From Pycnopodia helianthoides (lineage: Eukaryota; Echinodermata; Asteroidea; Forcipulatida; Asteriidae), in the NCBI GenBank assembly GCA_032158295.1, contig CM063251.1, forward strand, positions 19,345,425 through 19,409,424: 64,000 nt of DNA, in the 5' to 3' direction. The number at the start of each line of letters is the position of its first letter. Position 1 is the stretch's first letter. Positions 6,842 to 31,220 of this stretch are shown here, piece by piece. The notes below the pieces were generated by a model. It was given only the letters and a program-made list of their open reading frames with translations. It did no database searches and was not told the origin of the DNA. Position numbers and translations under genes: made by a program.

Positions 6842-6847
6842 TTTATT
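6842..6847 (-). promoter_or_regulatory. Polyadenylation signal AATAAA
   Basis: The plus strand reads TTTATT, which is AATAAA on the minus strand, 196 nt downstream of the stop codon of the peptide gene. It is the expected cleavage signal for that transcript, placing the mRNA 3' end near 6815-6830. Confidence 0.6.
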
Positions 6848-7042: not shown

Positions 7043-7179
7043 TCATGCCGCGTCATCTATTTGAGAAGTCCGTGACGCCAACAGCGAGCTGGAGAGGAGT
7101 CGGTCCACTAGACGAAGCATGTGCAGATTGTTTTGCCGTTCGTTTTGATAATCCGTAGCTTTTTGAACTGCTTCTTCGA
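7043..7179 (-). CDS. Putative neuropeptide precursor, coding exon 3 (C-terminal tail, stop)
   Basis: The acceptor on the minus strand is a pyrimidine-rich tract ending CTTTTTCAG, immediately before 7179. Two bases complete a codon begun in exon 2, giving V56, and 44 codons follow before a TGA at 7043-7045. The encoded tail (residues 56-100) starts VEEAVQKATDYQNERQNN and ends SQIDDAA. It has no Cys, is acidic at both ends, and has an amphipathic stretch LHMLRLVDRLLSSSLL. No further GKR or amidation motif is present. R70, R78, R82 and R92 are isolated basics, so additional peptides are unlikely. AATAAA lies 196 nt beyond the stop. An alternative acceptor TTTTTCTAG 12 nt upstream preserves the frame (adding 4 residues) but is preceded by a less favourable tract relative to the branch region. 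Confidence 0.75.
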
Positions 7180-7814
7180 CTGAAAAAGATTCTAGAAAAA
7201 GAAAGAGGTTGATAATTTAGAATCTACTTCCTCTTCGTCGCAACCGCTCATCGTTAGCAGTTAGGGCATTGCTACAGACGAGGCAAAAGATACACTATGA
7301 CTAAAAGAGAAAACCAACTGTGGCTTTATGCAACGGGAACGCTTCAGTAGCGAAATATTGTCTCACATTTTTTTTTTTTATAACAGTGTCTCCTTTATAT
7401 TCCGAAGAGATTTATGAGTTTTGAAAGGTCAGTAATTGGTTTTTCTTCCAGATTGTGTGGAACGAGACCTAGCATGAAAAACAAAAGGATTTATGCAAAC
7501 CGCGACGTTTGCTTGCGGCGCCATTTTATGACGTGTTTACTAGCCTAATTGATTAGAAACATTAATATAGAACTGTTTGTTAATACCATAGCATAAATGA
7601 ATGGAAGTTACGAAGCACAATAGGGCCTAGCTATTGATATTCTTTGAGTATCATAGGTGTCAAACTACTTTTAGGTTGTCTTAAACAAGTTTTTTAATCG
7701 GTATGCAGGGCTCGTTTGCCTGTTTCTTGTTCATTCTGAAATACACAATACCCTGAGAAGAAAAGACAAGTTTCCTAAATATTTTGAACATAATCTTTTT
7801 TTTGAGTTAAATCC
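7180..7814. other. Peptide gene intron 2, proximal part
   Basis: No repeat family recognised. It includes a T-run at 7369-7379. On the minus strand the last 40 nt form the pyrimidine-rich acceptor of coding exon 3. Confidence 0.5.
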
Positions 7815-8098
7815 TACGGAGCTCTGGAAGTGCCATCCGACATGTTGAGATCCTGACATAGTTGTCTCCGGATGACGACATCCTAAATGCAAATTAGTCG
7901 ACATACCGAGATAATTTATCTCGGGATGTCGACATCCCAGGATAAAATATCACAGGAAGACGACATCCTACTTTTAGGATGTCGACATCCCGACATAATT
8001 ATCTCGGTATGTCGACTAATTTGCATTTAGGATGTCGTCATCCGGAGATAACTATGTCAGGATCTCAGCATGTCGGATGGCACTTCCAGAGCTCCGTA
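7815..8098. repeat. Foldback element with 123-bp inverted arms
   Basis: Two arms, 7815-7937 and 7976-8098, are near-perfect inverted copies (outer end TACGGAGCTCTGGAAGTGCC) around a loop of about 38 bp. AAATCCTAC occurs directly at 7809-7817 and again at 8099-8107, so a 6-9 bp target duplication is likely, its length ambiguous because TAC is also the arm's first three bases. Long arms with a 9-bp duplication fit a Mutator-like or foldback MITE; that assignment is inference. The element is in intron 2 of the peptide gene. Confidence 0.85.
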
Positions 8099-8107
8099 AA
8101 ATCCTAC

Positions 8108-9573
8108 TGAGATAGTGGCTTATAACGTGTCATCAACCTCCCGTCATTTTGGTCAAATTCTTGAGGCAAAAAAGGTTCCCCTTCCACGATGATTTCGCGC
8201 TCGTCAAAACTTCTGCTAGCGGAAGTTTTTATCCTATAGGTCCGGACCTCCGACAAGATTTAGCAATGTTCGAGAAAAAAATTATCACTAGGGACCACAG
8301 ACAGTCCAAACTTCGTTGTCCTCTCACACGAAATGCAGTTTGTGAAATTTCACAACCATGATTTCATTAAGCAAGGGACCCCTGCTAAATTGCTGTCGTG
8401 TGAAAAGAGCCTTTAGATGTGATAGTTTATATTTTGATCTTTCAACTTAACTATAGTTGCACTTTTGGATTTGCAGTTGTGGTTTTGAAAAATGTGGTCA
8501 GGAATCCATTGTGGCACTATTTGGAAAATTTCCTGCTGCGCGACAAATGAGAGGGAAAGTTCTGTTTAAAAAAAGAAGGGAAAAACATGTGGGGGACATA
8601 TTTTCCGCAATGTTAAGTTTTTGAAGAATTTTGTTTTTCACCAAGTGTGGAACTGTAAAGAAACTCAGCACGGGTCCTTTTTATTTGCTGTAAATGTCAC
8701 AAACACTTTCTGGTCCATCATTAAGGACACAGCTGATACGATAGCTGTAGGTTTGTCACGAGGCACACCCTCGGGTTGGACTATAAAAAACAAACTCAAG
8801 GAACAAGTTTAATTATGAGTTTGGAATTCCCTTTATTAATAGCGAATTTGACCCCTTAGGTGAAGTGCGTGTATAAGAGGCATATATCATCGATCGGTAT
8901 GACCGGGGGGGGGGGCTCCTCGTGATCTTTAGACAATTGACATCAAACTTGACTTCCAAAGGTTAAAAAAGTCGCTAACCGTATAGTGGTCATCATCTTG
9001 ACAACCGGAATATTTGAGCTCCGATTATACCTGCTTTTGTGATTTCATGACCCTGAAAAGCAGGCAGGCGCCTCTGTTGATGCCCCTTTTGAAAAAAGAG
9101 ATGCCTCGAATTTAGGTTAATTTCTCATTGTTGCAGTTGTCTTGATAATGATGAGTAGACTATGTTTCATGATCATCGGATCCGAACTGAGAGTATAACA
9201 CTCACGATATGGGAGGAAAACTGAAGTAACAAAAAATGCTCTCGCTAACTATTAAATAACCGCGTAGTCAATTAGAAGTGGACGCCTACACCCACTCACG
9301 CCCCGTACCATGTATTGTTAGAATGCAAACCGCTGTAATTCACTTCATACCGAATACAGAAACGTGTGTATTAAATCCAAGTATGTTCTGAGCTACAACT
9401 AAAAGTGGACCCAGCATGTTTCCCCAAGTACTTAGCGGACTGTTTCGTATGGTAACCGGTATTGAAAACATTTAAATGAAAACTTAAAAGCTCTCAGAAA
9501 TGTTCACCATGCCTCGAGGCCGGCTTATAAATCCACGCGACATATTCAACAGTTATCGCAAAAAAGGGTTTCT
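8108..9573. other. Intronic stretch without recognised features
   Basis: Apart from an 11-G run at 8905-8915, I see no exon or repeat family that can be supported here. Confidence 0.5.
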
Positions 9574-10030
9574 TTAAGGGTAAATTGGTAAGTATTCCAA
9601 AAAATTAATGACCATACAAGATTACTCGATGAAAGGATTCCCTTTCGAAGTAATTTGGTTTGGATATTTTTCCTACCCAAAAACATTTAAATCTGAGAGA
9701 CGATTTTATGGGCACGAATCGTTTCTCTTGATTTCCGAGGGTAGGTGTCCTGTCGCGAATGCTGCGACCATATAAGATGTGGTTGGTACCCGCTGTCAAC
9801 TCGCTATAAAACGCGGATGGATTCGACGTTCGTGTGAAATCACAGTGACAGTTTTTTTTTCTCCTTTCTTCTGTTTTCTCAGCAAGTAGACTCTGTATTC
9901 ATCTGAAACTGTCACATGTGACTTTTATTTATACCGGTATCTTTCTATATAAGTTTGCCTATAAATCAGCATTATGTTGACAAGAACCATGCATGACAAG
10001 AACAATCTAATCTATGACACTACCTTTCAA
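9574..10030 (+). repeat. TTAA-type element, family D copy 1
   Basis: It shares an ordered set of blocks with 27758-28160: GATTTCCGAGGGTAGGTGTCC, GATTCGACGTTC, CAGTGACAGTTTTTTTTTCT, TTTTCTCAGCAAGTAGAC, TATAAATCAGCATTATGTTGAC and a TCTATGAC terminus. Both ends are decayed from TTAA. It is non-coding. Confidence 0.75.
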
Positions 10031-10309
10031 GACTCACCACAAATAAATTACGCAAAATATACTGTCTTATGCATAAAAAAAAGGAAAGTCCCATATGCTG
10101 TGGGCTCACAGTGTGTTCCTTGTAAACAACACTTAAGATTCACTTGAAGAAACAAAAAACATGCAAATTAATTTCATAAAGAAAATAATGAAGCGCTCTC
10201 GACGAGCAATAAATTACATGCTGGTCGGTTCCAAACTCAAATATTAACGCAATCTTAGAAGAAACTCGACCACTTCATAAACGCGTGGTCTTTGTTCAAA
10301 CTCATCCTC

Positions 10310-10697
10310 TTAAAGACACTGGACACCTTTGGTAATTGTCAAAGACCAGTCTTCTCACTTGGTGTATCTCAACATATGGATAAAATAACAAACCTGTAAA
10401 AACTTGAGCTCAATTGGTCGTCAAAGTTGCGAGATAACTATGAAAGAAAAAAACACCCTTGTCACACCAAGTTGTGTGCTTTCAGATGGTTGATTTCGAG
10501 ACCTCAAAATCTGAGGTCTGAGGTCTCGAAATCAAATTCGTGGAAAATTACTTCTTTCTCGAAAACTATGTCACTTCAGAGGGAGCCGTTTCTCACAATG
10601 TTTTATACTGTCAACCTCTCCCCATTACTCGTTACCAAGTAAGGTTTTATGCTAATAATTATTTTGAGTAATTACCAACAGTGTCCACTGCCTTTAA
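10310..10697 (+). repeat. TTAA-bounded MITE, family B copy 1
   Basis: A 388-bp element beginning TTAAAGACACTGGACAC and ending with the inverted GTGTCC-CTGCC-TTTAA terminus, with GGTAATT inside each end. The centre has an imperfect GAGACCTC hairpin. Eight family-B copies occur in this window. Confidence 0.9.
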
Positions 10698-11050
10698 TAA
10701 GCATTTTCTGGGGAAAAAAGAGGCCTCCTTTAATCTCTAGCCCTCTTCCGAAAGTAATCTTCGAGTGTGGACAACTTAATTAAACCCGACATTTATTGAA
10801 TGTTAAGAGTATTTTGAGTAAAGGCCGCTATTCTAGTTGAAGTGTTAAACAAACAAGTATTAGAAGTTGCTTGGAGTATGTGAGATTGTCACATGCTCAC
10901 TATTACATTATTATCTTATCAATCTAGAAGCAAAAATTCCAAGATAAATACAAGATGTTTGTATAAGATACAACGATGCATTAATAACATGCGACCATAA
11001 TATATTTTCATGCCACTTTTGCAATTTACATGTTTGAAATCTATGTAGCG
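10698..11050. other. Intronic spacer, nothing recognised
   Basis: AT-rich sequence without a supported feature. Confidence 0.5.
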
Positions 11051-11445
11051 CGGGCGGGTCGTGGCCAAGCGGTCAAGCACTCTGGTTTCAAGCTGTGGTG
11101 TTTCTGACCAGCAGAGCGTGGGTTGGAGTCCCAGTCGTGACACTTGTGTCCTTATTTAAGCCAGACACTTAGCCATTATTGCGGCGCCCTTCGGATGGGA
11201 CGTAAAGCCGTAGGTCCCGTGTATAGTGTATAATGCACGTAAAAGAACCCATGTACACTAACTTGCTGGTATGGTTGGCTTCAGATTGCGACACAAAACT
11301 TTGTAAACCGTTACATGGTGATAAGTAAATAAGTGGGTCTCGTAGTTCGAACATAGCTCCAAATACCTTGTGGAAAAGGTAATGATTGCTTTTTGGTGCA
11401 CGATAAAAGCGCTATGTAAGAACTATGTATTATTAACATTAATAT
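11051..11445 (+). repeat. tRNA-derived SINE, copy 1
   Basis: The head has an RNA polymerase III A box (TGGCCAAGCGG, 11062-11072) and a B box (GGTTGGAGTCC, 11121-11131), resembling a Ser/Leu-type tRNA. The body contains GGATGGGACGTAAAGCCGT and GCACGTAAAAGAACCC, a core I associate with widespread invertebrate SINEs. The tail reads AAAAGCGCTATGTAAGAACT then ATT-rich sequence. It shares head and body with the minus-strand copy at 19951-20268. Confidence 0.85.
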
Positions 11446-12005
11446 GCCCTAAAATAAAAAGGGGAGATTTTAGTGATGTGAGAGACCTACGTATAAACCA
11501 ATCATTTGTCAGAAATACTGTGCTTTCCTCATTTTGTTTTCAGCCCAATTTGTTTAGATCAAACAGCTGAAATGGCGTGATTTGTTTCCAGTGTAATACT
11601 TCAATAGCTGAGCTTTGTTACACATTTTAGGAACTCCAAATGTAAAAAAGAAAAAAAGTTGCTTAGAATAAAATATGAAAAAAGAGCAATGAGGCATAGG
11701 CCTAATACTTATACCGCGTCAACATTTAGTGTTACTTGTCGAATGACGCAAGACGTTGACACACATCTCGCTCATCAGAGAGTTTTACCAACATTGATTT
11801 TTTTCCACTTCGGTGAAGGATTTCAGTAAAGCAGGCTTTGGAACGTAAAGCCTTCTATTACGTGGCCATGATCAATCGATGCACGCACTGCCCATTTTCA
11901 CACATTTATTCATAATTAATAAGCTCTCATAAAGTGGGTGCCGTAATTTTTGAATATTTCTCACCGACAGATGAATCCAACCGTAAACTCATCTATACTT
12001 TCCTA
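11446..12005. other. Intronic spacer, nothing recognised
   Basis: AT-rich; short A-rich runs near 11646-11660. No exon supported. Confidence 0.5.
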
Positions 12006-12310
12006 TTAAAGGTAAGATCATCGTTTGACATTTGACAATTAATGAATGCGGATTTATGGGCAAAGTTAGGATACAAACAAAGTCAACTGTAAGAGTTTCA
12101 GTTGAACACAGTGTCTACTTGTTGATAAAACATGGAACACTGTGTATTTTCATCAAGAACGTCGAATCCGTCTACGTTTAGCGAGGTGACAGCGGCTACC
12201 AACCGACCGCATCTCTGGCCGCAGCGTTGTGAAACGAACACCGCGGAAATTTGAATCTCCAAAAGTCGCCTTTCTAGGCGATCTTCAAAGATTCCAAGCT
12301 GTCCACTTAC
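12006..12310 (-). repeat. TTAA-type element, family D copy 2 (one end missing)
   Basis: Read on the minus strand it contains GCTGCGGCCAGAGATGCGG, CTGTCACCTCGCT, GATTCGACGTTCTTG and AAGTAGACACTGT in the order of the copies at 9574 and 27758. It ends at a TTAA (12006-12009) preceded by a CCTTTAA-like terminus. The other end is not discernible. Confidence 0.7.
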
Positions 12311-12689
12311 TTTTGTTGACTTCTAATCAACGAGGGCACTTCAGGCAAAAGTATTTTGCAGGATGCTTACTACTATTACAATCTTTACAACAAGTCAATT
12401 TTTAGTCTATTCGGTTTGCGGTATAACACCATGTGTATAAGTTAATTTTTGGATAATGTTTTTTTCGTGTCATTACCAAAGTAGGTTTCGAACTCATATA
12501 AATGTTGCTTTCATGGGAAAATTGCTCTCATTGCATTGAAGTCATTTGAAAAATGAGGTCGTAAAAACAAAATAAGACTTCATTATATTAACAATTTAAG
12601 TTTTCAATGTTGCTGCAATGTAACAATTTAGTCTCAGGTGAAAAACTTACGGTAAAAATGTTGGGCTTTAAAACTACTTCAAATGGGAC

Positions 12690-12770
12690 TATATTATTCT
12701 AAAGTAACACCAAGAAGGGCTGGCGCAGTTCCATTGACTAAATAAAGTATTTGATTTGATTTAGGAAAAG
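12690..12770 (+). repeat. LINE/SINE 3' end-like fragment
   Basis: The fragment reads GGGCTGGCGCAGTTCCATTG then AATAAAGTATTTGATTTGATTT. A short tandem TTGAT tail after an AATAAA is a usual retroposon 3' end. The element itself is not identified. Confidence 0.35.
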
Positions 12771-14124
12771 GTCAAGACATTTAAAAGTTTGTTTAGGGCA
12801 CTTGGTAGAACGGAGACTAGGGCCTGTTTCGAATTTACCCAACATTGTGTTGCATGAAGGAACTGATTGAAAAAAAAAAATTATGTTGCAGTTGATTTAT
12901 GGCGTGCTCCTATGCAGTGTCCCGCCATTTTGTTTCGTACTGTGAATGTTGTAAAACATTAACAATTTTGTTCTTCTTGCATTGACAATGACTTCAACAA
13001 ATTGACTGGCCTGTCAATATCTTGTCTGGTGCATTGTAATGCCTATTACATTAAAAAAACATCCATGGCTTAGCTTATTCCGTGCAGCAAGGACGCTTTT
13101 GTTGTTTGAGAGACAATTATTATCAAGTCGCACTTCGGAGAGAACAAAAGCCTTTGCCGAAATATTATCATCTAAACAATGGATATTGTTTTAGTCAAAA
13201 ACTTGATTAACGTATGATAATTATTGGCTCCTTTCGTTTTGAGAAATATTCCGAATTAAAATGCTGTGATTTTTCCCTTCTGGAGTGATGTTATACTCCA
13301 TTTATTTCGATAACTTCAACAACAAACAACGTCAACAAAAATATCTAATGAACGTTTGCCATTAAATAGCATTAAAATGTTAATGAGGCCCTAGCTAAAT
13401 TTAATAAGGGCTACATAATGTACAGATTAAAGTGAAAAACATCGCGTGAAAAAAAAAAAAAAATGAAAAAGTGGACAACAAAGGTACTTAACTATGGGAA
13501 AGGAAATGTATCTCTTTAAAATGCTATCATACAAAACAATCGGTTCTCTTATTTCATAAGGCGAGAAACAAACAAGATCCAAATCGGCAGGAAATTGGCA
13601 TGCAAAACAATTCTTCTTTGCGTAATTATCTCGAAGTAATCATATTTTTGAGGAACAGAAGAGTTGATCGATTGAAACGCTCGAAAGACCGACACGGTTC
13701 TTGTGACAAATAATTGATAATGGTCCCTATGTCAATAATTAAGAACCACACCGACAACGGTTCTCGTGATGTAGAACCATTCAAATGAGTCACAATTAGG
13801 TAGTAGTGAAATAATATTGAAACCCAATTTGATTCCGTGTACCATGCCAAGCATCAAGTCTTTCACATAACATTTCTATTCTTACTATTTTGAGAAGAAG
13901 AAGAAGAAGAAAACTTGAAGAATGCGAAAATACGAAGAAGAAGAAGAAATAAAAAAAAGCTTGAAAATGTGACTAATTCTTTTGAGGACCATTTGATTTT
14001 TCTCTCACCCCATATTTGGTTATTTCACTTCTATGGTGATTAGGCGCCATGCCAATTATTGTGTTTACTAATTCTTTTGAAACTCGAGAAGGCTCCCTTT
14101 TTTTCGTCTGACACAAGTACTTAC
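12771..14124. other. Peptide gene intron 2, distal part
   Basis: AT-rich. Poly-A runs at 12868-12878 and 13448-13462 and (AAG)n at 13893-13911 and 13931-13949. The minus-strand donor GTAAGTAC of coding exon 2 is at 14117-14124. Confidence 0.55.
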
Positions 14125-14259
14125 CATCTTGTTCGGGAAATGGGGCTATTCTTTTGCCGAAGTGAACCATACAGCCCTTCACCGTGCATCTCCTGTTTGC
14201 GTGGCATGGTCTTAGGCACACCGTTGAAACCATCAGGAAAACCAACAGCCACGTCAACC
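14125..14259 (-). CDS. Putative neuropeptide precursor, coding exon 2 (signal peptide and peptide)
   Basis: On the minus strand a long pyrimidine tract ending CTGATTTCAG precedes the exon at 14259 and the exon ends CAAGATG before GTAAGTAC at 14125/14124; both are near-consensus. The exon is 135 nt and phase 1-1. It encodes the hydrophobic core LTWLLVFLMVSTVCL, a polar RPCHA end (signal peptidase site after A31), then NRRCTVKGCMVHF, GKR and IAPFPEQD. C35 and C40 could form a six-residue ring, F44 is followed by Gly-Lys-Arg for amidation, and R33-R34 is a possible trimming site. The ring size matches vasopressin/oxytocin, urotensin II and arthropod CNMamide peptides, but there is no neurophysin and no clear homology. 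A second frame is also open across the exon but lacks a signal peptide and fits no neighbouring exon. Confidence 0.8.
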
Positions 14260-17030
14260 CTGAAATCAGATTTACAGAAACGAAAAAAGAAAGAACAAAA
14301 AAGAAAGTCATTTTCACTGATCAGAGTTATCATTTCTTATTTTTATTCCATTCAACTTTTGCGTAAACGTTGCTCTTGGAGTCAACTCTTTCCTTTAGTT
14401 TGTAATTGACACCACACAACAAAATACTGATTATTTATTCATTTGTTTTGGTTGCCATATTCATGTTATTCTTTAATTTGACAAATCGAATTATGAATCA
14501 ATCAATGTAGTTTTTTCAATGTAGTGTTTCAGTCGGAAATATTCCTCAAGACAATTGGTAGTCAGTTCATAAAATGCAATATTTCATTCATTCCCGACCC
14601 CCACCCCTCATGTTTTCTTTTTATAAAACAATCATGCACCATGCATTGAAGCAACTCAGTAATATTTGATTGTTGTCAGTTTTTGTCTGCTTGCTGAGTT
14701 TCATCCGTTTGCCGGGTCAAACTGACTCAGACTTTTGACTCCAACTCCAGGTCACTTTGACCCTATATAACCCTTCATCGGGTCCATTCTAACCCGGGAC
14801 TATTATCACAGGTTGGTTTTGGGTCGGTTCCTTTAAGATCTAGGTGACCCCCCAACACACACAAAACCATAATTTGTCATAGCTTTAAACAAATATAACT
14901 AACTGTTGCAAACTGCTTAACAACCGCATAACTGCTTAATGGCCTAACGTTTCGACCCTATAGCAGCTCGAGAAAGATTCTGCTAGGATAGAAGCGTCAG
15001 ACCATGAACTATTTTTAGCTTTAAAGTAATGAACAATAATATCCACACATAAACAAAAAACCCAAAACCGAAAACGAAGCAATCTGTCGAACACGATATC
15101 TGTCCACCCTTTCAGAAAATCGTAGTCATTTTTGCTATTGCAAACCGAAGTTGATAAATTCGTGACATGTTGATGTCACACTCATGTTGTGACGGGTACA
15201 GCGGCCGGGTATATCAGCACTGACAACCAACTCGTCCAGATTAGTGAACCGTCAGTTAGACCCCAATAATATCAACTTTCAAAATATCACCACGCATTCG
15301 GTTATTGGTTTGACCTCATGTGGAGTTTTGATGTCAGTGTGAAATAGATTTAGCGTGAATGTCGTTTATATTATCAGCTCGATTGTCTCGAAATCATATT
15401 AGCTCTACTTCACTGACAACTTATCGATCATAGAAGTAGAAGAGCCCTAAACTCCATCTTTCCGGACTCTTTTTATTGTATTATTTTTGATTTTGTTTAA
15501 GGCCTTATCGACATTTCCTTCGGTGGGCTCCGGTCAATAGCTTGGCTTCCGCGCAGTGAGTGACAAAACCTGTGGAGGTACTGCAAAAACGTTGAGCCCC
15601 TTAAAAAACAATTGCCATGACGAACGTGCACCTAATCAAGGGATCGTTTTTCGTTGCTTATTGCTTCAGTATCGATCGGTTGCGGTTCGTACTGTTGAAG
15701 CTCACAGCATCATTAAACACAACAATTAGAAGCAAATGACGGTTTAGTAGTCCATGTGGTTAAGTCAGATGGGCATTGATCATAGCACGCGTATAACTTT
15801 TTTTGTTTTCTTATTTTATCAAGCAAGGCCCAACTTTCCAATATAGCACAAATTAAAACTAAATACGCGTATAACAAAACCAATTCAAAGTAAAACGTAT
15901 ACGACATTGTTGATTACCAATTTATTGCTGTCTATAATAATCCTTGTCGTCGATAACTTTACAGTCCCCACCGGGCATTGATTAATTAAATTGATAAGTC
16001 CCGTATATACATGCACTTCAAAAGATACGGGCCTTTACACACGGAGATAAGCGGCTAGATTACGGATCGTTAAAATAGTCTAGACCGGTTAGTGACGACA
16101 ACTTCGAGGAAAGAAAACAAACCACAACAAAACCGCCAACCACATGTTCAGACAGTTCTAGTGAGAGGGCCAAAACATACATGCAGGCACAGAAATATAA
16201 CTTTGGTAAAATTACCACACATTGAATTTGAAGTTGATATGGTTCCCTATAAATTATAAACCTTTTATTTTCATCATTTTTCGATCAACCTTTGACAGGA
16301 CCTGTATATCTTGCTTTCTTTTAAAACTTGTACTATTTGAAGTTTTACTTCTCCATGTTGCATTAACTTTTGCACTGAGATCGATGCATTGTCGGTACCT
16401 AATATCCAAATGGGGATGGGAGGCAGGGGTGGGATGGGTGTGTATGGAGTGGGGGGGGGGGGGTGTTGACGTAACTCAGATCGCCAACACACACCAGGGG
16501 TGGAGTGTCGAGACATAATTTTACCCCCATGGTTGAGGCAAACGTATCAGGCTCGTCCGCAATGTTTTTTTTTCGGAAATAGTATGCGCTTGCTCAGAAC
16601 TTTACATGGCAACGGACAAATACGCCTGCAAGTCGCCTAATGGATCGCAAATTGTGTCCGAATTTCTGCCCGAAATGCAACCCTTTGCTCCTAATAAAAT
16701 ATTGATACGTACTGCAACCACCAGGCCTACAACAAGCCTCCACTTCATTCGTTAGAGCTAAAAAGGCAATTCAGAAACACCCCCCCCCCTCAATAGCTTG
16801 TTATACCCAATACAGGCGAATATACTGGGTTAATTAAGTAATCGACTCAATTATTACTCATAAAAAACAGACTAATTTGACGACCCTTTTCAGTGAGCGA
16901 AATAGTATGGAAGAGAACCTCTTGTTTGACGGGGTAATGTTTTGATGGCTTATACTGTTTTTTTCTTCTACCGATTTTGGTGGAAACGTTTTCATTGATA
17001 TTTTGGGGATCCTCGTGTGGGGGTGCTTTT
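14260..17030. other. Peptide gene intron 1, 3' part
   Basis: No further exon recognised. It holds a retroelement-like motif (14941-14990, listed separately), a 15-G run near 16451-16465, and otherwise AT-rich sequence. Confidence 0.5.
14941..14990 (-). repeat. GTCGAAACGT motif, retroelement-terminus-like
   Basis: The minus strand reads CTAGCAGAATCTTTCTCGAG, then CTGCTATAGGGTCGAAACGTTAGG. Phrases of the type 'pairing stem then GTCGAAACGT' recur at the ends of Penelope-like elements and related retroposons, where they can be part of hammerhead ribozyme cores. Here the catalytic box is not intact, so it is only a relic candidate. Confidence 0.3.
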
Positions 17031-17423
17031 TTAAAGGAACATTACAGAATTGGTTTTTGCTAACAAAAATTTGCTGGCCGTGTAAGCACTTTATGTAGTC
17101 CACCATATACATAAACTGACAAACCTGTAGAAGTTTGAGATCGATCGGCCATCTGGGTCACGAGAAAATAGTGAAAAACCGATTACACATTTGCATGAAA
17201 TCATATAGATTCAACAAAATGAATAAAACGCTCATTGAGCGATAAACTCCAATCGGAAAATTAGTTTATTCTTTTCTCATCAAATATGGCATTTCAGACA
17301 GAAATGTTTCAAGGGATGTTTTCTACTATCATCATCATTAGACCGTGTAAGTTTTATGTAAATCTGTGATCAAAAAGTATATTTTACAAGTTTTTTCTCA
17401 CCAATTCTGTAATGTTCCTTTAA
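17031..17423 (+). repeat. TTAA-bounded MITE, family A copy 2
   Basis: 393 bp, same orientation and nearly identical to 237-621, with intact TTAA flanks and inverted ends. It differs by an extra ATCATC block in the interior (about 17327-17338), also present in the 46104 copy. Confidence 0.9.
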
Positions 17424-20268: not shown

Positions 20269-20413
20269 TCAATGGTAACTGACAATGTATTGTGCAGAAA
20301 TTGGTTTTTCTCGAAACACAATTATTTTAGTGCCTCTAATATGAGCGGGGTTTTTATACGCCAAAAAGTACAGAGAAATCAATATGAATTATGCCCCCCT
20401 AATCAAAATCTAG

Positions 20414-20791
20414 TTAAAGGCAGGTTGTACTTTTGGTAATTACTCCAAAAGTTAATGACCGTAAAAATTACTACTTGGTAAAAAGCACTGGAGAACTGTT
20501 GATATTACAAATCGTTCTTAGAAACGACCCACTTTAAAGAAATGTAGTTTTAGAGAAAGGGGTGATTTTTTTCACCCAAACATTTTAATCGGAGAAAGGC
20601 TTCTTGGATGAAGCCTTTCTTCAGGCATCTGAAAGCACACAATTCTATGCAACAATGGTGTTTTTCTGTCATTATTTTCTTGTAACTTCGATGACCAATT
20701 TTCACAGGTTTGTTATTCTATGCATATGTTGGGATACACCAAGTGAGGACACTGGTCTTTGACAATTACCAATAGTATACCCTGCCTTTAA
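20414..20791 (-). repeat. TTAA-bounded MITE, family B copy 2 (B2 subtype)
   Basis: TTAAAGGCAGGTTGTAC at one end and the inverted GTATACCCTGCCTTTAA at the other. The interior has a hairpin GAAAGGCTTC...GAAGCCTTTC in place of the GAGACCTC hairpin, defining a subtype shared with 22790 and 43929. Confidence 0.85.
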
Positions 20792-22789
20792 GTTTACATT
20801 TTATAGTCAACCTTAACTCTCTGTGCTATACAGATGGTTAATATCTTGAACTTCATTCATCCACACCTGATTAATTATCTCTGTGCTCTTCAGATGGTTA
20901 ATATCTTTAATTTAATTCATCCCGACCTGATTAATTATGTCATATCTCTCAAACCACAGAGCAAGGACACACAAACGTCAATAACATGTACGCTACTGTC
21001 TCACTTTACGTATCAGAATGAAGCAGACATTATATACAAGGAGGAAGGGAGACATCAACAGCAGTATAGGGATCTTTGTTTCATACACTGAACTGGCAGG
21101 TGTTTTGTCGCAGCTCTCCTAATGTGCTGCATTTTTCTTGTAATGGGTGAACTATCGCACATACTATAAATTACATTGGACATTGTAAATAGTTACGACT
21201 AGTTATAGGGTCAACACGTGTGGGGGTATATTTGACTCGTGTATTACGAGGGTGTGTGTGTTTGAGGCGACACACCGGGCATTATTTATAAGTCATTTCC
21301 ATTCAAAAAAGGGTTTCCTTCGTGAGTAAATTGACATGGCCGAAAGCAAACTTCACAATCAACAAAGCAGCGATAACGAAGCCACTTTTTTTCCACCTGC
21401 GCCGAAGGATTGCAGGACCGTGTGGCCTGCATGCTAGGCTTGTTTGTAAGTCACACGACTGGGGAGGAGGGGGGGGGGGTGGTTAATGGAGCAGGCGAGT
21501 TCAAGGAATCAACGAGTGTCTTGTTGGTAGAGTTGCGATTAAACAATTATTATAACCCGTATGTCAAACAGTTGTGTCAACAAATAATATTGACACAATT
21601 CACGTTCTTTCAGTGTACATTTGCTGTACAAGAATTCGAGTGGGCCTAGGTAATGTTTTTAACAGGGGTAGGATGTTTTTAGTGCTCTAATCCCGTGGTT
21701 CATTATCACGCGGTAAAGCCCAAGAAATGATCCTTGTAAACTATAGAGAACCAATGGAAAAATTTCGTAGTGCCCTTCATGATGCTCTTTCGTAACTGAT
21801 GTGACCTTTTTGTTTATTACGACCCCCCCCACCACAATCTTCGAAACTTCAAACATGACAACAGTAATAAATTACGTAGGGTCTATGTGATTTACAGTAA
21901 ACATAAATGCATAATCATAATCAAGAAAACAAAACAAAAACTCGAAGAAATGCACTTCTTGTCGTGTTCTCTTTTACCCGCAAACCAAAATCCCCAAACC
22001 GTCTGTTTTTTTTTTTTACGGTTTAAACATACAGGACACCATCATACTTCAGGGTTTTTAAATTTATCGGTATTTATGTATATACCGAGTCTTTAAAGTG
22101 GACTTATTTGTGGGAGACTCGCATCGCCAGTCACCGGCTGTTATTACGAACATCATCGTGAATCACCACAAAATAGAGAGCGGTCCAATTACAGGGTTCG
22201 ACCCACTCCATTCAAGAAAAAAAAGGAAAAGTACTGACACAAAACTATCCTTAGCCTGAGTTACTGACACTTCTGTTGTGACTGTTCCAGCAGATTCACG
22301 CTGTGTATCAATTTTCATTGAAATACAATACCCGTCAAAAGGAGAGAGAGAGAGGGCAGTCTTGGCCCGGGTCCCCATCCAATGCTATTTGTAGCTAACC
22401 CCGAGAACAGTGTGATGTATAACTCGCCAAGGATTGAATAGCAAGTGGGTTTTAACTTACCTGTAATTAGAGTTTAGGGAAAAAAAGTACAATGTAGGAA
22501 GGGTATGAATTGATGAATTCAAGAGCGATGATACCGGAATAGGTATGGGACGAGCACATTCATCAAAATCGTTAATCCTTTTACAATAGACACCCTTTTA
22601 CCAAGCCCCACATCCATTAAAAGGTTACACATAAGAACTGTATTCAGAAACAAGAGCTTAAGTTTTCAAGCAAAATTTTCTCGTTTATTTCCCTCTCGTT
22701 TCTGTACGTCATTGAGTATTTTTTTCTGGCCAGTTGGTAACTGAGCAGAAGTCATTCTTGCAGAGAAAGTATAACAGTTGATAACATTC
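20792..22789. other. Intronic stretch with a short local repeat
   Basis: CTGTGCTATACAGATGGTTA and CTGTGCTCTTCAGATGGTTA occur about 60 bp apart (20821-20945), each followed by AATATCTT, ATTCATCC and GATTAATTAT: a two-unit direct repeat. The remainder is AT-rich with G and C runs near 21467 and 21824 and (GA)n near 22342. A minus-strand ATTACAG/GTAAGTT donor-like site at 22451-22457 has no coding frame beside it. Confidence 0.45.
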
Positions 22790-23126
22790 TTAAAGGCAAA
22801 ATTCTGAAATACGTTCCATACAAATTGACTTGGTAATGTGCACCTGAGAGCTGCTAATAATAGTATAAAGCATAAAGCAATGTGATAAACGACTCCCTCT
22901 GAAGTAATGTAGTTTTTGAGAAAGAGGTAATTTCACTTCAACCATTTTTTTTTTCTGAGAAAGGCTTCAGGCATGAAGCCTTTTTCGGGCATTTGAAAGC
23001 ACACAGTTCTATGCAACAAGGGTGTTTTTCTTTCATTATTTTCTCGCATCTTCGATGACCAATTGAGCCCACACCAAGTGGGGATACTAGTCTTTGATAA
23101 TTACCAAACATGTATCCTGCCTTTAA
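22790..23126 (-). repeat. TTAA-bounded MITE, family B copy 3 (B2 subtype)
   Basis: Bounded by CTTAAAGGCAAA and ATCCTGCCTTTAA, with the GAAAGGCTTC/GAAGCC hairpin and the conserved GATGACCAATTGAGC core. One end is decayed. Confidence 0.8.
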
Positions 23127-23936
23127 CTATGATTATTACCTCAATGTATCTGTATCACAATTTGCTTAATTTTTGTTTGTAAAAAGGAAAACACAAACAA
23201 AAAACCCCAACAACAGCAACAAACCAAAACGACGACTTAAAAAAACCCCACATGCCTGAAGTATTTCTCTTCAAGAAAGACCAAAATGCGGCTCGTATAA
23301 ACACTATAATTGCCAACGAACTGTGATGGCATAGCAAAGAGGGATGACACAATCGTAAAGCAAACAAACCATCAAAATAGTCAAATTCACTTGGAATTCA
23401 CATTCCCGGCCTTCGTACACCAAGCTCCACGTCCCTCTTCCCATTTGTAAAAAAATATGTAATATAAAAACGAAACATGAAAAGAAAGTGGACCAATTTT
23501 GCACGATCACTGAATGCTAGAAGTGCTTGTTAAAAAGAAACACACGCTGCTGAATAAAGGATACAGTTATTAAGGGAGGAGACATGTCACTTTCAATGTG
23601 AAATGTTTGTTCTGCTGTAGGTATGGTCCTATTCCTGATATCATATTAAAGTGTGGTGGGTCACTTGACGACGAGGGGCCTGCTGCGTTAACTTCCCGCC
23701 ACAACTCTGTTCAACTTGAATGAACTTTCCCGTCAATTTGTTATTCAGAAAACCACATTGTGATAAAACAAAACATTGTATTAAATACTACATAAAAATT
23801 AGTTAGGAATGTTAATTTTTACTAATGTCATTTTATATTTTTGAGATAATGTCTAAATTTACTGCACGAGTAACCGTCTCGTTTTCTCCACTACAATTAT
23901 AATTATTGATGTAACCAAGAAACAGAGGTCGTATCC
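23127..23936. other. Intronic spacer, nothing recognised
   Basis: AT-rich sequence; no supported exon or repeat. Confidence 0.5.
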
Positions 23937-24058
23937 GAGTCGACTGCTACAGCTACGGCTACGACTGTTGCTAAGGGTGTTGCTATGGACGTCCTATTCT
24001 ACAACGCGTGATGACGCGGCAATCCAGAAATAGCCGTATAGCAAATTCGGATACGGCC
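23937..24058. repeat. CGGCTACGGCTACG-type MITE, family F copy 1
   Basis: Inverted ends GGTCGTATCCGA and TTCGGATACGGCC flank an interior with GCTACAGCTACGGCTACG, GACGTCCTAT and AACGCGTGATGACGCGGC. AGA occurs directly on both sides (23934-23936 and 24059-24061), a possible 3-bp target duplication. Relatives are at 51267 and 53222. Confidence 0.75.
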
Positions 24059-24178
24059 AGAGACCAGTTGGGCTCCGTTTTAGTTGGATTGAAAATCAGC
24101 ATTCGTTACTGCTATTAAAGACAGGGGAAGCACGACACATATGACGTCAGCATGATGACGGTTGTTCCATCTATCTAT

Positions 24179-24333
24179 GGCCCTTTTCGAATCCACGGCT
24201 TCGGCTCCAGATTCGGCTTCTGGCCCAGTTTTCTGAAGCCCTGACCGCAAAGCATGCATAAGTTAAAATAATTGAGGGAACCTAGCTAGCCTGAGCCGAT
24301 TTTGGAGCCGAAGCCGTGAATTCGAAAAGGGCC
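24179..24333. repeat. 155-bp MITE with 34-bp inverted ends
   Basis: Ends GGCCCTTTTCGAATCCACGG and its inverted copy GTGAATTCGAAAAGGGCC continue inward through GGCTTCGGCTCCA. The interior is short and AT-rich. It directly abuts the next element at 24336. Confidence 0.85.
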
Positions 24334-24335
24334 TA

Positions 24336-24451
24336 GGGTGCGTTTTCGCGGCTGTAACCAATAACTGTTTTATTCGGTCATTGTCCAGTAAATAAACCAA
24401 TGGCCAAGTCAACCGAAACAGTTATTTGGTTACGACCGCGAAAACGCACCC
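24336..24451. repeat. 116-bp MITE with GGGTGCGTTTTCGCGG ends
   Basis: Nearly the whole element is an inverted repeat: GGGTGCGTTTTCGCGG then GTAACCAATAACTGTTT, matched by its inverted copy, around a loop of about 40 bp. A one-base indel separates the arms. Only two bases separate it from the 24179-24333 element. Confidence 0.85.
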
Positions 24452-24467
24452 CATACGTCTTTTGTGG

Positions 24468-24811
24468 TTAAAGGCACTGGACACTATTGGTAATTACTCA
24501 AAATAATTGTTAGCATAAAAACTTACTTGGCAACGAGCAATGGCGAGCTTTTGATAGTATAAAACATTGTGAGAAACGGCTCCCTCTGAAGTAATGTAGT
24601 TTTTGAGAAAGAAGTAATTTCTCAGTAAAATATTTGAATTGTTTTTGAGACCTCACGCGTGAGGTCTCGAAATCAAGCATCTGAAAGCACACAACTTTGA
24701 CGACCAATTGAGTTCACATTTTCACAGGTTTGTTATTTTGTGCATATGTTGAGATACACCAAGTGAGAAGACTGGTCTTTGACAATTACCAAAGACGTCC
24801 AGTGTCTTTAA
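24468..24811 (-). repeat. TTAA-bounded MITE, family B copy 4
   Basis: TTAAAGGCACTGGACAC to GTCCAGTGTCTTTAA, with a perfect palindrome GAGACCTCACGCGTGAGGTC + TC at its centre (24647-24668) and the core GACGACCAATTGAG. Third element in a cluster starting at 24179. Confidence 0.9.
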
Positions 24812-25894
24812 CATAATATGTACTTTTAGGTTATTTTTGTGTGACACAACGTGCCAAGTTTAAAACAGGTAAAGTATAAAACACATTCACTTAATGTGGG
24901 GTTTAAACACACCACATAAGAACAATAAAAGTAAAAAAACACACAACTGTGTGGAAATTTTAGAAATGAATTTCCAGTTGCTTTCTGCCGCGACTCACTG
25001 CTTTAAGAAGCCTTACCCAGATAGGTTTTTTTTTCTTCCGCAAATTAAGTTATCTTGAATGATCTGAAAATCAGTTGAGAGCATTCGTACGAGAATTTTA
25101 GCCCGAGGAAATAAAACGCTGTGACTTCACATGGGTCTGATTAACGTACAAACTCATCTTACGATGTGTTAAAAAATTTAAAAAAAATGTCGGGCTGTCT
25201 CTGCGAAACGTTTCCGGACCAAACTTTGTCGATCGTTGGACTCAAAACGCGGTCCTAGTCTCCGCGCGTTGTTGACTTTTGACCGGCTGACTGGATACGG
25301 TGCGTTATTAATAGGCCGCCAGCGCGAACCAAGCAGTGAGGGAACTGGAGACGAGTCTAACGGCAATAAATGTGTCGCAATTTGATTGTTTCGTGGCCTT
25401 AAAATAGAATACAGAATAATCGATGTTTACTCGACCAACCTTCGGTTCAGAGAAGACCGATTATTAACCAATTTACGCGGAAAATAAAGACCATCATGAA
25501 GTGAGGTATTGGAGAGAGGGGGGAAATTATCCTTCGCGTAGGGGACAAGAAGCATCACAGTTGATCAACCCCCAAGGTACAAACAATGTTTGGGTGTCAT
25601 TATTAGATGAAACGATCTGAGCAAGTTAACGATTTGTTCTTAAACGAGGAAAAAGGGCCGTGAATTTAAGGTGCTATCTCGAGCGGACTGATCGATCCGA
25701 GAGAAATAAGCCTTCGGGAGGATAAACTTATAATTCCCAACCCCCCATAATTCTCAATCAACTAGACATAAAAAAAAACCACCCCAAAATATAACATTCT
25801 GTCGGTACCATAAAAGTATAATACGAAAACAACACCACCGCCAACCACCTCTTTAAAAACGTCAATGACAACAATGACGACTTTCGCTGTATCC
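24812..25894. other. Intronic stretch with a GC-richer patch
   Basis: A GC-rich patch at 25190-25370 contains an open frame on the minus strand (25178-25366, 62 codons, start MPLDSSPVPS) with no recognised domain or splice context. It could be an unrecognised repeat. The rest is featureless. Confidence 0.4.
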
Positions 25895-26170
25895 GTGTTG
25901 TGGTACTCGTATTCGAGTACTACTCGAGTACCGTGTTGTGGTACTCGTATTTGGTACTCGTATTCGAGTACTACTCGAGTACCGTGTTGTGGTACTCGTA
26001 CTTGGTACTCGTATTCGAGTACTTTTTGAGTACCGTTTTTGTGGTATCGTACTTTGTACTCGCATTCGAGTACTACTCGAGTACCGTTTTGGTGATACTC
26101 GTACTTGGTACTCGTATTCAAGTACTACTCGAGTACCGTTTTGGTGGTATACTCGCACTCGTACTCGGCT
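25895..26170. repeat. 51-bp tandem array rich in TACTCG
   Basis: About five units of roughly 51 bp contain repeated GTACTCG and the palindromic CGAGTACTACTCGAGTAC. Because 51 is a multiple of three, frames stay open on both strands and encode 17-residue repeats; these are not evidence of genes. Scattered TACTCG hexamers continue to about 26290. Confidence 0.9.
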
Positions 26171-26428
26171 TGCAAATTGCTCCCCCTCAAAGTCCGTACT
26201 CGATCCTCGACTGAAAAATAATCAGTACTCGTAGACATGTACTCGGTTCTCTATACTAGAAAACATACTTGGACTTGATTTCCAGTACTCGCGGTCAAAA
26301 TACCACTTTCTTATTAAGGGATAGAGGAACAAAGCTCTGGACAAAGTAGAAGTGAAATTGTCTATGATGTATTCATGTTTGAATGATACCGGTAGTTATC
26401 ATAAAAAAGCACACCATGTCGTCATTGC

Positions 26429-26577
26429 TATACTGTGCAAGTCTAGTCTGTGTTCGGGAATTTTTTAAAAATTGTTTGGGTTCCCATGTAAACTATTTAT
26501 GATGTGTAAAAAGGAAACGAAGTCACCAAATCCACGGGGAACTGCAATCGAAATCGCGCGTGACTTGCACAGTCTAT
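26429..26577. repeat. Short TIR element, GTGCAAGTC family copy 2
   Basis: Left end ATACTGTGCAAGTC and right end GACTTGCACAGTCTAT are inverted copies. About 149 bp. Its right end closely matches the 31-bp minisatellite unit at 19331-19950. Confidence 0.7.
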
Positions 26578-27757
26578 TAAAGAGAACAGACAAACCCACC
26601 AAAAACCACAACATTTTTGGAATAATGTACGTAGTCCTTACCCTCTTAAACAAAAATTTGTGATAATTTTTAAGAATGTTTCAGGTTTTGCTGAATGATC
26701 CTTGCTTTTTGATGATATCATTATTGATTATGATTAGGTATGATTGCGATATTTTTGGTTTGCAGTAGGGCAAATTATTATTTGCGTGTTCAGTAATTTG
26801 GAAAATAATTTTGTTTCATTTATACAGTTAAAAGTAACGTAGGCCCTATGTTGTGAGCGAAGGTTCACGAGAATGTCTATAACAACCTAGACGATACGTC
26901 AGAAGCTTCAAAAATAAACACATCAAAATATGAATTTTTTATAATAATAACTGAATAAATAAAAAAAACCTGTCCCTTATGAGTTCTGAGATACCGCTCG
27001 GACCACGTCGATTCATTGTAGTTGTATGTCTGTAAAAAAAAACCACAACAACAACAAAAAACACAACCCCACACATAATTTTCTTTATCTTCAATCTTTA
27101 ATTTTTATCCGTGTGTTCGCTCTTTTAATGAATAATCCCCGCATTGTATGAAATGAAGCCAGTGTCCATTGTCGTCACCAGATGCTATTTACAAAATCAC
27201 AACAGATGCAAACACCCTTTTTTTTGCGTAGATTGAAACGGGCAGTGACGTTACCAAAGGGCAAGTAGGCCCGGGAGGAACCCGACTTGAAGATGACATG
27301 GAGATCTAGCTAAGATTTCTCACGACGGCTATCAATTAAGGGCATTATTAACACTCTTGGCCCGAGGAGCTTAGCGATGTGGTATCTTGCAGGACAGATA
27401 GAGAGAGAGACAGAGGGAGGGAAAGAGAGAGAGGGAGAGAGCTAGGAAAGTAATAAGAACATCTAGACGTGTAATATGAAATGAATATTGACTGATTTCA
27501 TTACAACATTGTCTACCGATTTCGCGTGCGACCTGATGATTTCAGCTTCCTGTTTGTGTGCATGTGAGACAAGATCTCCTTTGGCGAAAAAAAAGTAGAG
27601 AAAACAAAATATGAGAAAAGACAGATTGAGACTAATATTGGAGTAAGCAAAATACCAGTTCGGGTTATCCTCCAGGTTTCATTCAAGCTCTTAAAATAAT
27701 AATTTTTTGACAAAAATTGTAATATTTTGGTAGGTACACTCTGAGTCTGGACGAATC
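26578..27757. other. Intronic stretch with (GA)n and a lone acceptor-like site
   Basis: Purine-rich (GAGAGAGG)n lies at 27399-27442. On the minus strand a long pyrimidine tract ending CGCCAAAG at about 27579 precedes a 21-codon open segment ending at 27513-27515. Its phase does not join the peptide-gene exons. Confidence 0.4.
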
Positions 27758-28160
27758 TTGAAGGTAGGGTCATAGATTGGTAAATTAAGAATACAAATTT
27801 ATGATCATAAAAACGTACTAAGTGAGAAGCACTGCAGCTGATGACAGAAACTATTTTGAGAAATGATTCATTTTGAATTAATATGGTTTGGATAATAAAG
27901 TTTGAATCTGAGAAACAGTTCACGCATGAACCTTTCCTCAGATTTCTGAGGGTTGGTGTCCATTCGCGAAGCTGCGGCCAGAGATGCGGAAACCTCGCTG
28001 AACGTTGATAGATTCGACTTTCTTGTGAAAAATACCGTGACAGTTGTTTCCCGTTTTCTCAGCAAGTTGACACTGTATTCAGCTGAAACGTTCACACTTA
28101 TAGTTTTGCTTATAAATCAGCATTACGTTGACAAAAACCAATCTATGACCCTGCCTTTAA
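27758..28160 (+). repeat. TTAA-type element, family D copy 3 (best preserved)
   Basis: Inverted ends: AAGGTAGGGTCATAGATTGG at the left and CCAATCTATGACCCTGCCTT at the right, then TAA. The left TTAA has become TTGA. This copy defines the ends used to interpret 9574-10030 and 12006-12310. Confidence 0.85.
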
Positions 28161-28556
28161 ATAATTTACACGGGAAAAATCAACGCATACTTTGAGTATG
28201 AATAGTTAGTAACAACCAAAAATGCGTGAAGAACAAAATTTGCAAAGTTTTTACTTATGCGCTGTATAATATTATGCAAGTTTTTATCGGAAGTGAAGTA
28301 ACTTTCCACGCATCTTTAAAATCAATATTTGTGTGTGTGCGTGTGTGTGTGTGGTGGGGTAGGGGGGTCTGAAATGCCGCCATTTGAGCACATTATAACA
28401 TTTAATTTCATTGTTTCTTTCGCCAATGTATGATTAAAACGCACGATATACTCGTTGTTCCAGAGTCCCATTACAGAACTATGGAGGTACCTCAAACAGA
28501 AACCGAGTCCTTGTCTTTCAAACACATTTTTTTCGTTATTGAACGAAAGGGTTGGA
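28161..28556. other. Spacer with (GT)n
   Basis: A GT-rich microsatellite is at 28329-28352 followed by a G run. No gene supported. Confidence 0.5.
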
Positions 28557-28934
28557 TTAAAGGCACTGGACACCTTTGGTAATTGTCAAAGACCAGTCTT
28601 CTCACTTGGTGTATCTCAACATATGCACAAAATAACAAACCTGTGAAAATTTGAACTCAATTGGTCGTCGAAGTTGCGAGATAATAATGGAAGAAAAAAA
28701 CACCCTTGTCTCACGAAGTTGTGTGCTTTCAGATGCTCGATTTCGAGACCTCAAGCGTGAGGTCTCAAAATCAATTCAAATAAATTACTTCTTTCTCAAA
28801 AACTACGTTACTTCAGAGGGAGCCGTTTCTCACAATGTTTTATACTATCAACAGCTCTCCATTGCTCGTTGCCAGGTAAGTTTTTATGCTAACAATGATT
28901 TTGAGTAATTACCAAAAGTGTCCAGTGCCTTTAA
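28557..28934 (+). repeat. TTAA-bounded MITE, family B copy 5
   Basis: 378 bp from TTAAAGGCACTGGACAC to GTGTCCAGTGCCTTTAA with near-intact inverted ends, a central GAGACCTCAAGCGTGAGGTC hairpin and intact TTAA on both sides. The best full-length family-B copy in the window. Confidence 0.95.
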
Positions 28935-30711
28935 GTTTTAAGGACCGATGGTTTAGGGGTAATGGTTTCAGGGTTTGAAGGTGCAGGGTTAGGCTAAGTT
29001 TTGTATCACCTTTCAACTTTCGCAAATACTTTCAGAAAGCCCGTTGAGTAATATGAGTTATGGTGAGCAAACAAAAATGATACCAAAACTCTAGACTTTG
29101 TACTCATTTGATTATTGTCTCACAGCTGATATTACCATTTGAAACAGGGGAGAAGTTTCTTCGTTGAGTATTGGCCATACGCGGCTGTTTGAAAGTGATG
29201 CTGCCATACAAGACGGTCTTTCTGCATCAACAAGCTGCATTACATCGGTAAAAAAATGACCGATAGTCTGATGGTCAACAATCACCTTTTCATTTCTGAC
29301 TTCTTAACAAATCTAAGAACTGGATGAAGCTTTTAAATTCTAGACGCCAAAAGATGCACTATTTTAGAAATCTAGGTTGCTCATTTGGTGGTCGATATAG
29401 GGCATGGTGTACCCACCACTATTGTTTCTTCATTGTGTGCTTGCAATCTCAGGAATTCTTTAGAGGATTTTACTTGGGGGGGGGGTACTTTTGAACAAGA
29501 GGGAATGGGTGTGTTAAAGCATAGAGAAAGGACCACAGAAAGTATGGGAACATTTGGGGATACCCTCTGCCAAATATTAGGCACGGTATAAGGTTGTACT
29601 CTAATATTAGTCGGGTTCCTTGAATGAATGTGCTGGAAACTCATTGCGCCACACACGACTCGTTCCGTACATAAACCTTCGTAATTGGATAAGGCATATA
29701 AGCGTAACTTGAATTAACTCGTGGTCTGGTAACTTTCATTTTTGCAAAACAAGTACATGTCTGTAGTTTTTTTTTTGACAAAGGGAGAGTGTACATTCCC
29801 AATTGTGTGATACTATCATAAAAACGTTCACGTGAAAACATTCTAATAACTTTTGGCCAACAGTGAATTACTTTGCAGCTTGGGTACCAAACATGGGTGT
29901 CGCTCCTTCTCCCTTTATGCACCGTGTACGTAAATCAACCGTAATAAGTCTCAGACTGCAATAACCGGGTTGCATTATTTATGTTTGTCATGAAGACTGT
30001 ACTTTTTTGCTGTTTTAAGTGCGTGACGACAGGAAGCCAGGCGGAAGCCCCCTTTTGTTCTGTGTTACATCATGCAAGGTTTAAACCGTTTGTCGCAGCT
30101 GTTCAGTATAATTAACCGCACTAGAGCCTGCGTTACAAAAACAGGAAACGAGTATAGGGCTTGGGCTTTTTTGACAGCTCTTTAAGTCAAGCTTCAATCG
30201 AAGAAGTAATAAAGTCACCGTGCCATCGGATTAGAAGGGAGAGAATCCATCGGCAAATAACACTGACTGGGGAAATATCCGCTGCATAACCGCTTGAAGT
30301 CCAAGGATAACATCGCGACACGCGTCCAACGAAGTCGCCACAGGCGTATCTCGAAAAACAGCCATTTCAAAGAGAAGGCGTGAAGGGCTGATTTATTTCA
30401 GTAACCAACCTTTCCCTCTATGTTAACATAACTTTAAAAAACAATTGTTTATTTGCCAGCAACCTACCGGTTGAAACTCAGCATGAAAATCACGCACTGA
30501 ATAAATAGTAGATATACAAATTGTTGCCTTGTTCTGTCAACGTCACTTGAAAAACTCTGAAAAATAGTACACGAATTTTTTTCCAAATGGACAGAATGGA
30601 CTTGAAGTTATTGCACCTGTTCACATCCAATGTTGGTACTTTTAATTGAATAGTATCGTTTACCTAGGACGACAACTTGAAAACCCAAAATATATATATT
30701 TAAATAAATTT
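28935..30711. other. Intronic stretch without supported features
   Basis: AT-rich with a G run near 29476-29485. GC rises between about 30030 and 30370 but no splice-bounded frame is convincing there. Confidence 0.45.
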
Positions 30712-31090
30712 GTGGCTTGTCGTGGCCGAGCGGTTTAGGTTCACCGGACCCGAGCTATATGGTGTTGTCAGCAGCAGAGTGTGGTTTGAATCCTGGTCAT
30801 GACACTTTGTGCCCTTGGGCAAGGTATTGCTACGGATAAATATAGTTGGGTATGTAGTGGATTCTGCTCTACCAGCTAGGCCCTAATGAAAGATACCCAT
30901 CCCTACATCCTTACGGACTGTGAAGGGGGGTAACCCTGTTTCAGCCCCAGGAGTAGGTGGCAACGTGCCCCCGGTGACAGTTTCGACAGCCAAAATCATT
31001 TAAGTGTAGCCCTAACATTGATATGGCTGTCCGACCTTGTAATGTTAGACGATATCTCATAAAACAATGAAATATAAATAAAACAACAAT
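30712..31090 (+). repeat. tRNA-headed SINE, copy 3 (different body)
   Basis: A box in GTCGTGGCCGAGCGGTTTAG and a B box GGTTTGAATCC place a tRNA-like head at 30717-30800. The body (GCCCTTGGGCAAGG, GGCTGTCCGACCTTGTAATG) differs from copies 1 and 2. The tail is AAATATAAATAAAAC. It inserted about 100 bp from the donor of coding exon 1. Confidence 0.75.
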
Positions 31091-31189
31091 GTTTTTTTCT
31101 CGTGCGAGCCCTAAAACGTCTCATCTTGGGGAAGCAGTAGACATTTTCTTCCTCTGTTGGTAAAAATAATTATCAAAGGATGGACTCAC

Positions 31190-31220
31190 CGTTATTTGTC
31201 TTTCCTGGCACCACAGCCAT
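31190..31220 (-). CDS. Putative neuropeptide precursor, coding exon 1 (start codon)
   Basis: On the minus strand the start reads ACAATCATGG (A at -3, G at +4), encodes MAVVPGKTNN, and the exon ends AACG before GTGAGTCC at 31190/31189. The one left-over base makes phase 1, exactly what coding exon 2 requires (G plus GG gives Gly11). Joined to exon 2, these residues form the n-region of a standard signal peptide with one Lys. No ATG occurs in the 165 nt upstream, supporting this as the initiator. The frame is also open upstream without a stop for more than 50 codons, so an internal-exon reading is not excluded, but the signal peptide formed by the join favours a start here. Confidence 0.65.

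Follow-up and report, generated by a model that had tools for sequence, protein, structure and literature searches.

A three-exon gene of the starfish Pycnopodia helianthoides predicted to encode an np25-type neuropeptide precursor

Can three short segments lying far apart on the minus strand be the exons of one gene and, if so, what kind of peptide does this gene encode? The question is raised by a stretch of 64,000 nucleotides (nt) of the starfish Pycnopodia helianthoides (assembly GCA_032158295.1, contig CM063251.1, positions 19,345,425 to 19,409,424), which we call the window. An initial annotation, made from the letters alone, had proposed a neuropeptide-type precursor gene in which three minus-strand segments join in matching phase (1 and 1) into 100 codons plus stop, and our analysis confirmed its coordinates, frame and donors. 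The coding segments measure 31, 135 and 137 nt, i.e., 303 nt when joined, giving 100 codons and a TGA stop, with both introns in phase 1 (Table 1). The start codon has an A at -3 and a G at +4, and the AATAAA reported downstream was found again past the stop. The splice sites had been described as near-consensus, which is true of the donors (GTGAGT for intron 1 and GTAAGT for intron 2) and of the acceptors in that each terminates in CAG (...GATTTCAG and ...TTTTTCAG), but the pyrimidine content of the acceptors is modest (8/14 and 10/14). The claim that simple scans for open reading frames miss the exons has to be given up for exon 2, which sits within a listed stop-to-stop frame of 115 amino acids (aa) at 13973-14320. 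Upstream of this exon, the frame is open to an acceptor-like site at 14316 (region 14125-14316), with an in-frame ATG just past it, and a shorter transcript beginning at its own ATG near this site is conceivable.

The 100-residue product begins with a putative signal peptide (residues 1-31, MAVVP...CHA), assigned by eye and by the boundary printed for the Asterias rubens precursor Arnp25, followed by NRRCTVKGCMVHF-G at residues 32-45 and by KR at 46/47. As had been noticed, this signal peptide is built across the junction of exons 1 and 2, the former coding for its N-terminal part and the latter for the rest. The mature-peptide region holds two cysteines, Cys35 and Cys40, spaced as C-x4-C and preceded by RR (33-34), whereas two more (25 and 29) fall in the signal-peptide region. 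There is no Cys beyond residue 40. The product has the single predicted Cys-ring peptide ending in Phe-Gly-Lys-Arg, and the Cys-free tail, that the initial annotation had read in it. This is probably the gene of a small, secreted, ring-shaped signalling peptide.

To find relatives, we searched about 5.8 billion proteins with a word-based method, using the product as a single-sequence query. This gave two candidates, both from starfish and both strong: an uncharacterized protein of Asterias amurensis (P0001; 84% identity over 100% of the query, E-value 7.9e-46) and LOC119729796 of Patiria miniata (P0002; 63% identity over 98% of the query, E-value 3.7e-34). Junction 1 (exon 1/2) is gapless in both alignments. 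At junction 2 (exon 2/3), the P. miniata alignment is gapless and the A. amurensis protein lacks Val56, whose codon is split by intron 2. On this sequence evidence we take the three-exon model to be correct and the locus to be a starfish gene rather than a chance assembly, because full-length starfish matches span both junctions. When identities are counted by exon (codons 1-10, 11-55 and 56-100), they amount to 10/10, 41/45 and 33/45 in A. amurensis, and to 8/10, 33/45 and 22/45 in P. miniata. The N-terminal MAVVPGKT is the same in both species, and the peptide with its processing site (residues 32-47) is identical at 14/16 positions in A. amurensis and at 13/16 in P. miniata. All three aligned starfish sequences have the pattern [NS]R[RK]C[TS]VKGCM[VI]HFGKR, and all three keep a dibasic pair ahead of Cys35 (RR, RR and RK). 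Hence, the proteins are alike in peptide architecture and processing site, and their indels are confined to residues 48-100.

Which family does this precursor belong to? Comparisons with published precursors, here and below, refer to parts of the cited papers. Arnp25 of Asterias rubens (KT601742) has 97 residues, with a signal peptide of 31, a peptide at 32-45 including a C-terminal Gly, a dibasic site at 46/47, and a pair of Cys that are spaced by four residues and preceded by two Arg (PMC4772807, 2016). By this printed description, rather than by sequence, our product differs in length (100 residues) and agrees in the signal peptide 1-31, the peptide 32-45 with its Gly, the dibasic 46/47, the RR, the C-x4-C spacing and the single copy. 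It thus shows the whole np25 layout, i.e., a signal peptide followed by one C-x4-C peptide that ends in Gly and a dibasic site and carries a dibasic pair before its first Cys. The sea cucumber precursor Ajnp25 of Apostichopus japonicus (MF422084) is tabulated with three protein-coding exons (PMC6586643, 2019), the same exon number as here. As described, it also has one two-Cys peptide directly after the signal peptide, with an amidation Gly before the dibasic site, but it is longer (147 residues, with a 17-residue peptide including Gly and a longer tail). A 2017 paper (PMC5627052) names CCHamide-like precursor 1 as the brittle-star orthologue of Arnp25. The precursor of Ophionotus victoriae (MF155229) is likewise described there with one cyclic amidated peptide, flanked by the signal peptide and a dibasic site. 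The np25 family is also named in a passage of a further sea cucumber paper (PMC9598280, 2022). A term search in the main text of a crinoid survey (PMC9793003) found neither np25 nor CCHamide (0 occurrences each).

Since the printed layout matches and two starfish relatives exist, we consider the product very probably orthologous to Arnp25. With a probability of about 0.95, it is the np25 (Arnp25-type) neuropeptide precursor of an Asterias-related starfish, predicted to be processed to an amidated ring peptide. On this reading, the locus is a starfish orthologue of a precursor already described in echinoderms and not a new kind of gene. Calling it unlisted, as had been done, does not stand: the A. 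amurensis and P. miniata relatives are already in databases as uncharacterized proteins, neither of them named np25, and the family has a name in the literature. The secreted amidated peptide role that had been proposed gains from the match with the published Arnp25 layout and stays a prediction; the parts of the published np25 descriptions used here contain no mass-spectrometric, receptor or functional evidence. We keep np25 as an echinoderm family, for which a possible link to CCHamide has been suggested.

Some observations weigh against this identification. The A. amurensis protein is labelled 'isoform X2' in UniRef and is one residue shorter exactly at junction 2, so splicing at this junction may be variable. 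An A. amurensis isoform X1 may exist, perhaps by use of an alternative acceptor. The Patiria protein bears the label 'Orexin-A' in UniRef. Finally, a search with the alignment of the three sequences gave 109 candidates, with only the same two starfish proteins at E-values up to 10. Neither this search nor the single-sequence one (2 candidates) reached a relative outside starfish, be it in sea urchins, sea cucumbers or brittle stars. Because the protein searches stayed within starfish, we rely on the papers for the link with the proteins of brittle stars and sea cucumbers.

The identification gives the exact structure of a starfish np25 gene, in which two phase-1 introns flank the peptide-coding region and the first lies inside the signal peptide. 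This layout can be used for comparison with the genes of CCHamide, endothelin and bombesin. The locus also exemplifies how a neuropeptide gene that is short but has long introns can be recovered by eye from raw sequence.

How would such a precursor be processed? Residues 1-31 would direct secretion, with cleavage of the signal peptide after Ala31. A further cleavage after Lys46-Arg47 would be followed by trimming of the basic residues, Gly45 would become the C-terminal amide, and a Cys35-Cys40 disulfide would close a ring of six residues, so that the product would be NRRCTVKGCMVHF-NH2. If the conserved dibasic pair at 33-34 (RR) were cut, CTVKGCMVHF-NH2 would also be possible. The peptide would then serve as a signal in nerve or gut, through a G-protein-coupled receptor. 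The starfish peptide ArBN also contains an RR; it was detected in nerve cord intact as well as cleaved after this pair, and its receptor responded potently only to the intact form (PMC12002301, 2025). Because ArBN occurs in both states, both forms of the np25 peptide are plausible by analogy, and by the same comparison the longer one may be the active form.

The alternative that survives best is compatible with the np25 identity: np25 might be a true bilaterian member of the CCHamide, excitatory peptide (EP, GGNG) and endothelin group, with a receptor of that group. The two Cys, the predicted amidation and the single copy right behind the signal peptide are shared features, and the brittle-star orthologue has been placed as CCHamide-like (PMC5627052). 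Features common among EP/CCHamide peptides include a GG or GA that follows the second Cys, and an aromatic residue, often His, between the Cys (PMC6617912). Yet our product has neither GG nor GA between its second Cys and the amidated end (CMVHFG), neither an aromatic residue nor His between the Cys (TVKG), and no Pfam family at E-values up to 10. We regard this membership as possible, but lean against it.

A related question is whether the np25 peptide has a counterpart among the eleven A. rubens receptors that are related to bombesin-type receptors, of which ArBNR1 answers ArBN while ArBNR2 and ArBNR3 did not (PMC12002301). The np25 peptide could be the missing echinoderm ligand of at least one orphan receptor among ArBNR2-11, a proposal that we hold to be rather unlikely. 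It is favoured by a CLANS analysis in which ArBNR1-9 group with bombesin, endothelin and CCHamide/EP receptors, whereas trees place the receptors other than ArBNR1 in a clade apart from the chordate and protostome ones, with ArBNR10 and 11 further off (PMC12002301). A term search in the text of that paper gave no joint match of np25, neuropeptide and echinoderm, and one mention of CCHamide. If the proposal were true, deuterostomes would have in np25 their counterpart of CCHamide/EP or endothelin signalling. The peptide would then close the gap that separates the peptides of protostomes from vertebrate endothelins, and would bear on the origin of CCHamide/endothelin-type signalling in deuterostomes.

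Peptides of the vasopressin/oxytocin (VP/OT) type carry a Pro-x-Gly tail. One might ask if the product is related to them or acts like them, since a cut at RR would give a Cys1-Cys6 ring with an amidated tail, i.e., a six-residue ring beside the signal peptide. Such a likeness was remarked for A. rubens np25, as possibly convergent (PMC4772807). However, the MVHF-NH2 tail is without Pro-x-Gly, the Cys-free precursor tail has no neurophysin, with no Pfam domain at E-values up to 10, and A. rubens already owns a VP/OT-type peptide, asterotocin. We thus consider a kinship or likeness of action very improbable, and membership in the VP/OT family is rejected for want of a neurophysin domain.

An orexin-type precursor is less probable still. 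The UniRef name of the Patiria relative speaks for it, as do the position of the peptide next to the signal peptide and the amidation Gly. But each of the two orexin-type peptides of A. rubens contains six Cys (PMC4772807), against two in residues 32-45 here, and NCBI lists the same Patiria protein as uncharacterized. Orexin membership is rejected by the number of Cys, and because starfish orexin has six, the name 'Orexin-A' looks like an automatic label. The precursor of ArBN resembles ours in that an amidated peptide with an internal RR adjoins the signal peptide. However, ArBN has no Cys, and the introns of its gene lie within the peptide (phase 1) and in the tail (phase 0) (PMC12002301). 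The echinoderm bombesin type is thus excluded, since here both introns are in phase 1 and flank the peptide, with none inside it. A sequence search of the PDB with the product gave a single weak match (E-value 0.045, a ParM fusion), which we took as chance.

That the three segments are a mere chance assembly of splice-like sites, conceivable in principle with short exons, introns of 7-17 kb and modest acceptor tracts, has a negligible probability and is refuted by homology, given two full-length homologues across both junctions, of which only one shows a gap at junction 2, a single residue long, and shuffled sequences that fail to reproduce exon 2. For the latter, we scanned for open segments that have YAG upstream and a GTRAGT donor, and in which a hydrophobic run precedes C..C..G[KR][KR]. 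In the window, this pattern occurs only at exon 2, as two overlapping models that share one donor and of which one starts at the acceptor 14316. It appeared in 0/200 dinucleotide shuffles with a mild pyrimidine filter (7 of 14) and in 1/200 without the filter. A stricter pyrimidine rule, used on 100 shuffles, had missed the real exon, and the 7-of-14 rule was set afterwards. Because the filter was tuned in this way, the scan is only supportive, and it is homology that decides. We also searched the species' own assembly (479 Mb in 742 contigs) with the product at E-values up to 0.001, exon 1 being too short to be detected. There were two matches, exons 2 and 3 of the present locus, and no close paralogue at this threshold, which speaks for the identification as np25.

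Table 1. Positions of the gene features and of one repeat family in the window.
Feature	Positions	Strand	Description
Coding exon 1	31190..31220	-	31 nt; MAVVPGKTNN plus the first Gly11 base; signal peptide, N-terminal part; donor GTGAGT (phase 1)
Intron 1	14260..31189	-	About 16.9 kb, phase 1; interspersed repeats and 31-bp x20 tandem array inside
Coding exon 2	14125..14259	-	135 nt; remaining signal peptide, entire Cys-ring peptide, GKR processing site
Codons 32-47	14150..14197	-	NRRCTVKGCMVHF-G-KR: predicted mature peptide, amide-donor Gly, dibasic cleavage site
Intron 2	7180..14124	-	About 6.9 kb, phase 1
Coding exon 3	7043..7179	-	137 nt; remaining two bases of Val56, C-terminal tail lacking Cys, TGA
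AATAAA polyadenylation-signal candidate	6842..6847	-	Starts at 6847, 196 nt past the stop; motif match only
Copies of the second repeat family	10308-10707, 20405-20792, 22806-23127, 24468-24811, 28557-28934, 37427-37796, 43929-44292, 61363-61972		Self-comparison

Scans of the window for Rfam families (at the gathering cut-off) and for tRNAs gave no match. Of the 32 listed frames that run from stop to stop over 110 aa or more, 10 were compared with Pfam, with nothing above the curated cut-off and five weak matches below it (E-values from 0.0076 to 0.094). Comparison of the window with itself, for pairs of at least 60 nt lying more than 1 kb apart, gave 72 repeat pairs, none of which (0/72) overlaps an exon. 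An interspersed element of about 390 base pairs (bp) is present in four copies (236-625, 17030-17427, 46104-46498 and 59441-59822) with about 92-95% mutual identity. A second, more diverged interspersed family reaches up to about 390 bp, with pairwise identities of about 67-93%. A core of 77-88 bp at 32620-32707 matches both families, and our guess is that it is a common core as in short interspersed elements (SINEs). The tandem array within intron 1 (19329-19949) has 20 copies of a 31-bp unit with 95% matches. Outside the gene, an interstitial telomere-like array lies at 35804-35966 (TAACCC, 26 copies, 74% matches); part of this array also shows a 30-bp unit. The neighbouring arrays at 41274-41621 and 42260-42686 have related 18-bp units, and their long open frames look coding but are repeat-derived. 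Finally, a 45-bp tandem array at 55626-56242 has longer periods of 171 and 187 bp.

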